DNA from: Bacteroidota bacterium
GTDB taxonomy: Bacteria; Bacteroidota; Bacteroidia; Bacteroidales; WCHB1-69
Direction: 5' to 3'
DNA length: 64,000 nt
Assembly: GCA_017860455.1 (NCBI GenBank)
Contig: JAGDMF010000010.1
Span: forward strand, 40,223 to 104,222
The translations under genes were made by a program, and so were the position numbers. Positions 3,404 to 4,775 of this stretch are shown piece after piece. The stretch's first letter is position 1; every line of letters begins with the position of its first letter. Below the pieces are notes generated by a model. That model searched no databases and was not told the origin of the DNA. It worked only from the letters and a program-made list of their open reading frames with translations.

Positions 3404-3579
3404 AAGGATACTATTTTATTTCTTGAATATTTGAATTAATGAAAGACAAAAGTAATCATTTTTTTAATAAAACCTAAGAAATGTAAATTAGCAAATTTGT
3501 GAATTTGTGAATAAGCAAATTTAAAATTTGGTTTTTGGGTTTAAAAAACTAATAACCAAAACCTTATAGCTAATAACTT

Positions 3580-3830
3580 TTTGGGCATTCCGGCAGCAGC
3601 CGACCCACACTCCTACCCTGCTGCCGTCGGGCTCCGGTCTAATGCTGATAGCTGAGAGTTCGCTGCGTTAGGGCGGAGCCGAGAAAGCCCGCAAAGCAAA
3701 AAGCCGCTATGATGCAGGGAGTAAAAGAGCGAGCTTGTGAGCTCCTTTTACGACCATGCAGTCATACGGCTGTTTGGTGCGGACTTGAAGGCGGAGACCG
3801 ACGGCGAGCTTGCGAGCCGGAACGCCCAAA
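3580..3830. repeat. GC-rich intergenic multi-hairpin element with terminal inverted repeats
   Basis: TTTGGGCATTCCGG (3580-3593) versus CCGGAACGCCCAAA (3817-3830), 13/14 complementary; internal hairpins 3592-3625, 3630-3680 and 3689-3782. Confidence 0.75.
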
Positions 3831-3831
3831 T

Positions 3832-3868
3832 AGTGAATAGTGAAGAGTGAATAATGAATAGTGAATAA
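3832..3868. repeat. Short degenerate tandem repeat (GTGAATA / ATGAATA units)
   Basis: agtgaatagtgaagagtgaataatgaatagtgaataac directly visible. Confidence 0.85.
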
Positions 3869-3869
3869 C

Positions 3870-4775
3870 TTATTTCTTAATCACTTTCTTAGCAACAGTT
3901 CCTTCTGGCGTTGTTACTTTTACAAAGTAGGTTCCTGAAGCATAAGGTTCAATATTGATGCTGTTTTCTGTTCCGGAATAGATCTTTTGTCCTACAATAT
4001 TAAACATTTCAATCCATTGGATATTATCTCCTGTAATATGAATTGTTTGAGTAGCAGGATTTGGATAGATTTTGAAACTTTCTGTGTTTTCAGTAACAGC
4101 TACATCATCCATTCTTAATTTAAAATTGTCAACATAGTAAGTCCCATTAGTTAAATCAGGTGGTGCAGCAGAAAAAAAGTTAACACCTCCTAATTGAACT
4201 AAACCTGTTGTATCATTTGCCTGATAATGATATGGCCATGTATGAATCTGATTATTGTTAATCTCCATTTTAGCTTCATCTTCAGTTAAATCAATTTTAA
4301 TATACATGTGAAAAAACTGATTAGAAGGATAAGTAAAGGAAATTTCTCCATCTGCAGCTTTTCCAACTTTCAGATACCCTGTTCCGGTATTGGAAAAATA
4401 GCATTCTAAGGCCCATTCAGAGCTTGTTCCGGCAAAGTTGTGCAATACATTAAAATAAGCTCCGGTGCCGGTAGAGGGCACATAATAGTCAAATTCGATC
4501 ACATATTCACCTGTTGTGAAATTGGCAATCGGGAAAACGCAATCATTTCCGGATACAATCTTTAATGAATTGGATGGAGATGCTGCTTGTTCCGCTGAAA
4601 TAGTCGCATCTTCTGATCCACCCGGGGCGGCACTCCAAGTCGTGAAATTCGTGTTCACGACAGCAATCTTGTCTCCGGCTGTATAGGTATCAAAATTTTC
4701 CTGAAAAATAATGGTTTGGGCTTGCATTGCGACACACGCAAAGAGCATACCCGTAAAGAGTAAGATTTTTTTCAT
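3870..4775 (-). CDS. T9SS type A sorting domain-containing secreted protein
   Basis: Signal peptide; C-terminal FKIYPNPATQTIHI...GTYFVKVTTPEGTVAKKVIKK sorting domain. Confidence 0.85.
   Translation of the reverse strand: MKKILLFTGMLFACVAMQAQTIIFQENFDTYTAGDKIAVVNTNFTTWSAAPGGSEDATISAEQAASPSNSLKIVSGNDCVFPIANFTTGEYVIEFDYYVPSTGTGAYFNVLHNFAGTSSEWALECYFSNTGTGYLKVGKAADGEISFTYPSNQFFHMYIKIDLTEDEAKMEINNNQIHTWPYHYQANDTTGLVQLGGVNFFSAAPPDLTNGTYYVDNFKLRMDDVAVTENTESFKIYPNPATQTIHITGDNIQWIEMFNIVGQKIYSGTENSINIEPYASGTYFVKVTTPEGTVAKKVIKK

Follow-up and report, generated by a model that had tools for sequence, protein, structure and literature searches.

Two head-to-head copies of a dispersed, structured intergenic repeat in a Bacteroidota genome, and their apparent kinship to Flavo-1

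The region 3580-3830 of the window (the whole 64-kb stretch of DNA analysed here, from a Bacteroidota genome, G000, of 2.01 Mb and 65% completeness) is overlapped by no ORF of at least 60 aa and has a GC content of 0.51-0.62, against about 0.20-0.35 in its surroundings. Its ends, TTTGGGCATTCCGG (3580-3593) and CCGGAACGCCCAAA (3817-3830), are complementary at 13 of 14 positions and enclose three apparent hairpins: H1, whose arms CGGCAGCAG and CTGCTGCCG (3592-3625) are exact complements; H2, with 81% complementarity across 16 nt; and H3, which is present in the predicted fold of the region. The RNA fold (-120.1 kcal/mol, z -6.0) beats 200 of 200 dinucleotide shuffles, and the DNA fold has a z of -7.0 relative to such shuffles. 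Searching the window against Rfam gave no match apart from a tRNA, and 3500-3900 gave weak miRNA and snoRNA matches only, far under threshold. The complementary ends, H1, H2, H3, the GC richness and the lack of an ORF had all been placed correctly by the first-pass annotation, which took them as parts of a single element of about 250 bp bounded by terminal inverted repeats (TIRs). This last point does not hold: the repeat unit is 60-210 nt long, its left and right ends differ, and it has no TIR.

We found that 3580-3830 is not one element but two adjoining copies of one repeat in opposite orientations. The apparent TIRs are two right ends and H2 is two left ends; of the three hairpins, H1 and H3 alone belong to the repeat as stems. 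The unit reads GC(A/G)TTAGGG...GAC-[hairpin]-GGAA(C/T)GCCC, usually followed by AAA, and its fold is a three-way junction made up of a closing stem (P1), an arm (P2) and a hairpin (P3). Element B (3665-3830, plus strand) is a full copy with the left end GCGTTAGGG and the right end GGAACGCCCAAA; its conserved part stops at about 3827, the AAA beyond being common, not constant. Its P1 is formed by GCGTT (3665-3669, plus strand) and AACGC (3821-3825, plus strand), and the base of P2 by GGG (3671-3673, plus strand) opposite ACC (3797-3799), giving two pairs and a G.A mismatch. Further in, AAGCCCGC (3685-3692, plus strand) lies opposite GCGGACTT (3779-3786), and H3 (3702-3771, plus strand; AGCCG...CGGCT) is the distal hairpin of the core, conserved in type-a copies. 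The GAC linker (3800-3802, plus strand) directly follows the ACC of the P2 base, and the P3 hairpin GGCGAGCTTGCGAGCC (3803-3818, plus strand) lies between GAC and GGAACGCCC. In BLAST comparisons, the core of B is 73-88% identical to about 14 other copies of the host genome.

Element A (3580-3645, minus strand) is an internally deleted copy of 66 nt, which reads GCATTAGACCGGAGCCCGAC-[hairpin]-GGAATGCCCAAA on the minus strand and whose ends agree with those of other copies in the alignment. Its P1 strand AATGC (3585-3589, minus strand) pairs with GCATT (3641-3645), and H1 (3592-3625, minus strand; GGCAGCAG/CTGCTGCC) is its P3 hairpin. The two left ends are separated by a spacer of 19 bp (3646-3664, TGATAGCTGAGAGTTCGCT), and an AGCTGA-type sequence resembling it also flanks other copies. 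The apparent hairpin H2 (3630-3680) results from the left end of A (3630-3645) facing that of B (3665-3680) and is no stem of the repeat. Among all fetched loci, such a head-to-head pair of left ends occurs only here, so neither the TIRs nor H2 can be kept as parts of one element. A covariance model built from 39 elements of other genomes, with the host genome excluded (R1), gave only two matches at E<=1 on the 64-kb window, at the intervals proposed for A and B: 3665-3827 on the plus strand (19.8 bits, E 0.0072) and 3645-3583 on the minus strand (16.0 bits, E 0.06), both modest scores with a rough calibration. These coordinates are those reached independently from the alignment of copies. The pair may have arisen by two insertions, or by an inversion, with a subsequent internal deletion within A.

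The host genome holds dozens of copies of this repeat. BLAST of the region against it gave 67 matches (best non-self E 1.6e-52), in support of the dispersed, structured intergenic repeat that the first-pass annotation had proposed, and the end motif TTTGGGC(A/G)TTCCG, with one mismatch allowed, was found 50 times, as compared with 2 times for the reversed control. The copies are at most 97.6% identical and their flanks are mostly at the background identity of random pairs. Nearly all of them are intergenic (32 of 33), between genes in convergent (10), tandem (10) or divergent (7) arrangement, and within tandem gene pairs their orientation is the same as that of the genes in 4 cases and opposite in 6. 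Many copies are truncated or carry swapped cores. A short palindrome of the AAAACCGCTTGCGGTTTT type lies directly to the left of GC(A/G)TTAG in 9 of the 33 copies (C5, C19 twice, C21, C27, C33, C35, C38 and C43), which suggests insertion beside terminator-like hairpins. Other features were seen in this genome, namely a DUF805b RNA (RF02914, 39.3 bits) at L002:873-907 on the minus strand, and a group II intron remnant (L003:15-92; RF00029, 49.0 bits in L003) closely to the left of the copy C18, with a similar stretch also to the left of the copy C1 (L056).

We then compared the stems of the repeat among copies. P1 has the form GCxTy with y'Ax'GC and closes the unit. It is complementary in all 36 scorable copies of the host genome, in three compensating forms: GCATT/AATGC (25 copies), GCGTT/AACGC (9) and GCGTG/CACGC (2). 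The G:C form is present in core types a, b and c, and this interleaving of P1 types inside single core types argues for repeated compensation. Among all fetched loci, GCGTT/AACGC was found 81 times and GCATT/AATGC 23 times, while the mixed ends GCATT/AACGC or GCGTT/AATGC were never found; further variants are GCATG/CATGC at a locus of G295 and GCGCG/CGCGC at a locus of G487. P2 is an arm with a Flavo-1-type core and an exchangeable distal part. It starts with GGN and closes with N'CC ahead of the GAC linker (GGG/CCC, GGC/GCC, GGT/ACC or GCT/AGC among copies), many host-genome copies having a GGG/ACC base with two pairs and a mismatch, and its inner helix is ATACCCC/GGAGTAT in type-b copies and AAGCCC/GGACTT or TAGCCC/GGACTA in other genomes. 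P3 is a hairpin of free sequence adjoining the constant right end GGAA(C/T)GCCC, and its outer two bases pair in 60 of 68 foreign elements, where about 4 would be expected by chance. Among the host-genome copies, identical ends enclose cores of three types and hairpins of several types. In the foreign alignment A2, 96.1% of the cells are paired and the covariation score is 0.218, compared to 0.071 in shuffles, none of 500 of which scored as high, although relatedness inflates such tests. The covariation supports conservation of the stems of the repeat.

The phylum and the core of the repeat are those of Flavo-1 RNA (RF01705; Weinberg et al. 2010, PMC2864571). The common core is GAT(T/A)GnAGCGGAAATCC-hairpin-GATTGTAGCGGAAAGC and includes a 2-bp AGYG/ARYG helix that covaries. 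The Rfam model of Flavo-1, however, spans the P2 core alone, whereas the type found in the window adds P1 and P3, and its core is longer or variant. At the curated gathering score of RF01705 (42 bits), the Rfam search proposed by the first-pass annotation leaves the window copies uncalled. Of the 17 foreign loci examined in this way, 8 reach the score, the match being the element itself in 7 of them and, in L293, a separate Flavo-1 copy elsewhere in the locus. Foreign copies with ends identical to those of the window copies score 44.5-63.4 bits against RF01705, and intermediates from a related genome reach 33.1 bits under the Flavo-1 model. No copy of the host genome reaches the gathering score, and RF01705 gave no match over 3500-3900, where a cut-off as lax as E<=5 was used, nor in 20 loci (mostly of the host genome) or in the host genome as a whole. 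By Rfam's own criterion, the window copies are thus not members of Flavo-1. The type-c copies of the host genome have their ends and hairpins in common with the window types and reach up to 46.5 bits with R1. Taken together, the passing foreign copies, the 33.1-bit intermediates and the R1 matches to the window and type-c copies show that the window copies are homologous to Flavo-1, linked to it via intermediates, yet belong to a divergent branch, which the curated model leaves uncalled.

The recurrence of such repeats across Bacteroidota, which the first-pass annotation had put forward, was borne out by homologues in other genomes of the phylum. Searching GTDB genomes with the right-end pattern gave at least 118 stretches; among the matches listed are Flavobacterium, Polaribacter, Algibacter, Kordia, Pedobacter, Mucilaginibacter and Tannerella, as well as Lentimicrobiaceae, other Bacteroidales and some rumen Treponema assemblies. 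The matches in Treponema (Spirochaetota; L299, L315, L316, L339, L356, L359 and L360), several of which also share flanks, may reflect transfer or misbinned contigs. The consensus of the foreign copies is GCGTTAGGGAT(T/A)G.AGCGG.AWCC-[arm]-GATnnAGCGGAAAGCCCGAC-[hairpin]-GGAACGCCC. Among 105 genomes of the family, R1 detects between 1 and 16 copies per genome in 30, and RF01705 is detected in 44 of 298 genomes of the phylum, with counts of at least 15 in many genomes of the genus g9. Window-type copies are abundant in G399 and G415, which belong to another genus than the host, and were not detected in their genus mates G397 and G398. The window copy was unmatched in plasmid and phage collections, and a typical Flavo-1 sequence used as the query matched only twice, weakly and in part, to Paraclostridium plasmids; searching the literature for sequence strings of the repeat gave nothing relevant.

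The two ends of the unit behave differently in these genomes. A sharp right end is seen throughout, whereas in G730, G754 and the genus g247 lineage-specific modules or repeats adjoin the left end, and the moving unit therefore has no uniform left boundary. Three identical copies of 83 nt with differing right flanks are present in G754, and the target-site duplications that the first-pass annotation had suggested looking for are not visible at near-identical copies in G754 and G730. In G754 (L469, L470, L472 and L473), the left module is 45 nt long, starts with TTGAAA and ends with GTTGGTAAAGAG(C/T)(G/T)T. A left module of more than 150 nt, which has no Rfam match, is found on 4 of 6 copies in G730 (L475, L477, L478 and L479) and is partially duplicated in tandem in L479. 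In g247 (L401-L426), about 11 of 24 copies have another repeat (TTTGGCACA...ATCTATGTGTC...CACCTCACGTGCCA) about 12 nt to the left. An empty-site comparison of G586 and G653 gave a single long match (L420/L404), which carries the element in both.

The repeat is thus shown to be dispersed and patchy in its distribution, with covarying stems and a right end that is sharp; its cores and hairpins are interchangeable, and it has no fixed relation to genes. From these properties, we consider it probable that the repeat is a divergent Flavo-1 branch and a non-autonomous mobile DNA, which spreads by being recognised as a folded structure and moved in trans. The enzyme acting on the folded single strand would come from the host or from a different mobile element, in a mode that may be likened to that of REP or IS200/IS605-type elements, and such a trans-acting enzyme appears to be the most economical explanation. 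Evidence against this reading is that neither an insertion event nor an empty site was seen, that neither an autonomous element with these ends nor an enzyme tracking the repeat among genomes was found, that the R1 scores of the window copies are modest and RF01705 has no match in the host genome, and that the left boundary varies. An alternative is that the repeat is a functional structured RNA, either an sRNA or an mRNA-stabilising or 3'-end element, with many paralogous copies and a dispersal due to duplication only. This would be in line with the classification of Flavo-1 as an sRNA gene by Rfam, with the strong RNA fold of 3580-3830 and with the covariation, which includes pairs flanked by A.G/G.A, typical of an RNA internal loop; the maintenance of so intricate a fold with its G.A-flanked internal pairs also fits selection for RNA. 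Against it, there are dozens of copies per genome, many truncated or core-swapped, without orientation preference relative to genes, window-type copies are not detected in two genus mates, and the Flavo-1 matches in the F. psychrophilum transcriptome are indistinctly sense or antisense to transcribed regions, with many outside them, and so are not consistently in or in line with transcripts (PMC9723704). The near-identical copies in unrelated flanks, the patchiness, the intergenic siting, the lack of gene orientation and the F. psychrophilum data favour mobile DNA over an RNA gene, and we regard a functional RNA as distinctly unlikely. The two alternatives left by the first-pass annotation are each borne out in part, the mobile element by the mobile-DNA-like behaviour and the ncRNA by a kinship to the candidate RNA Flavo-1; the TIR-bounded MITE is discarded, and on the tests made the repeat is no REPIN. 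The 13/14 complementarity of the ends would fit a single MITE with 14-bp TIRs, but other copies have TTTGGGC on a single side and GC(A/G)TTAGGG on the opposite one, no second head-to-head pair is present among fetched loci, and no target duplication was seen at near-identical copies, which makes this explanation hardly conceivable; the TIRs that mark MITEs of DDE transposons are likewise absent from single copies. Like REP, BIME and REPIN sequences, the repeat is high-copy, intergenic, palindromic and found in either orientation, with an inverted pair in the window. It differs from them in having no GTAG/GTGG foot in the genomic and foreign alignments, in being a three-way junction of 60-210 nt rather than a hairpin of 20-40 nt, and in that the inverted pair, unique to the window, is not the replicating unit; in addition, no REP-associated tyrosine transposase above the curated cut-off of 80 was found in the host genome, which is 65% complete. 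Integron attC sites were also discarded, by reasoning, as the ends of the repeat have the opposite polarity to R''/R' sites.

As to the enzyme that would move the repeat, we found no autonomous element with the same ends: no arrangement of left end, ORF and right end over 0.36-4.5 kb was present in any fetched locus, and the only pair of ends found in this search has mismatched P1 ends. A more specific form of the mobile reading takes the repeat as a REP-like substrate of a Y1 transposase, either REP-associated or IS200-like. The repeat flanks a putative RAYT/Y1 gene in L265 and L256 only, without overall enrichment, the element starting 3 nt past the stop codon in G487 (L265) and 31 nt past it in G295 (L256). 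Two of the three Y1 genes of the host genome also have an element about 0.5 kb or less downstream on the same strand, and the same is seen in G541 and G482. Y1 loci are mostly without an element, however (10 scan matches in 0.52 Mb of such loci, several of them duplicate fetches of one copy, as compared with 6 for the reversed control); the Y1 gene of L265 has ordinary GTAG-type repeats instead; the three host-genome genes score 24-31 bits against the REP-associated cut-off of 80 (NF047646), all three being of the IS200 type by NCBIfam in this 65% complete genome; and Y1 was not detected in the element-bearing, near-complete genomes G445 and G450. Y1 as an obligatory partner is therefore not supported, given the lack of overall enrichment at Y1 loci and the failure to detect it in G445 and G450, and we consider a Y1 substrate possible but rather unlikely. 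MITEs derived from IS200/IS605 resemble the repeat in their asymmetric ends related by base pairing, the hairpin near the right end and the lack of TIRs and of a visible target duplication, and differ in that no autonomous parent with the same ends was found and that the repeat lacks a hairpin at its left end. There is also a likeness, compared by description, to the atypical REP-like structures of TnpA_Y1 subclass 2.6 (PMC6006769), which are also from Bacteroidota, folded without GTAG and found in part beside Y1 genes with copies elsewhere, whereas the copies of the present repeat are mostly not near a Y1 gene. Finally, a retrotransposed or group II intron-derived repeat with a fixed 3' end and a variable 5' end would account for the sharp right end and for the left extensions in G730, G754 and g247, and the group II intron remnant beside the copy in L003 could be seen in this light. 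However, GC(A/G)TT at the left end is likewise constant, and covariation ties it to the right end; the RVT_1 domain was not found in the copy-rich genomes G399, G408, G749, G483 and G754 (the last 72% complete), so a reverse transcriptase as an obligatory partner is not supported and retrotransposition appears very improbable.

Other palindromes were observed at the Y1 genes themselves. The coding sequence of the Y1 gene of G487 (L265:1978-2538) contains in-frame GTAG-type palindromes, e.g., GTAGGGACACGACATGTCGTGTCCCTAC near 2290; such palindromes within coding sequences have been described for Y1 subclass 2.4 (PMC6006769). In the host genome, about 8 near-tandem copies of the short palindrome CTCTGCTACGAAGATGTCAGGGCTAACGCCCC (L064:3590-4010, at C43) lie upstream of a subclass-1.2-like Y1 gene (L064:2898-3359, minus strand), a subclass listed as being without REP (PMC6006769), and similar GACCCC..GGGGTC palindromes are found around such Y1 genes in G541 (L173) and G482 (L184).

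In a bolder extension of the mobile DNA reading, Flavo-1 itself would be no RNA gene and would instead represent a conserved, folded end in a new class of mobile DNA, with a three-way junction, a fixed right end, exchangeable inner modules, lineage-specific additions on the left and a mover other than a Y1 transposase or a reverse transcriptase; we hold this to be doubtful. In a 2022 survey of small RNAs, Flavo-1 is among the most abundant bacterial families, with an unknown function (PMC9029176). The branch found in the window is a whole subfamily missed by Rfam, and the abundance of the family is consequently underestimated. Should members of the family spread as folded DNA, many of the "sRNA genes" annotated in Bacteroidota would be mobile repeats, and the copies within one genome would be a natural experiment on which folded DNA gets mobilised.
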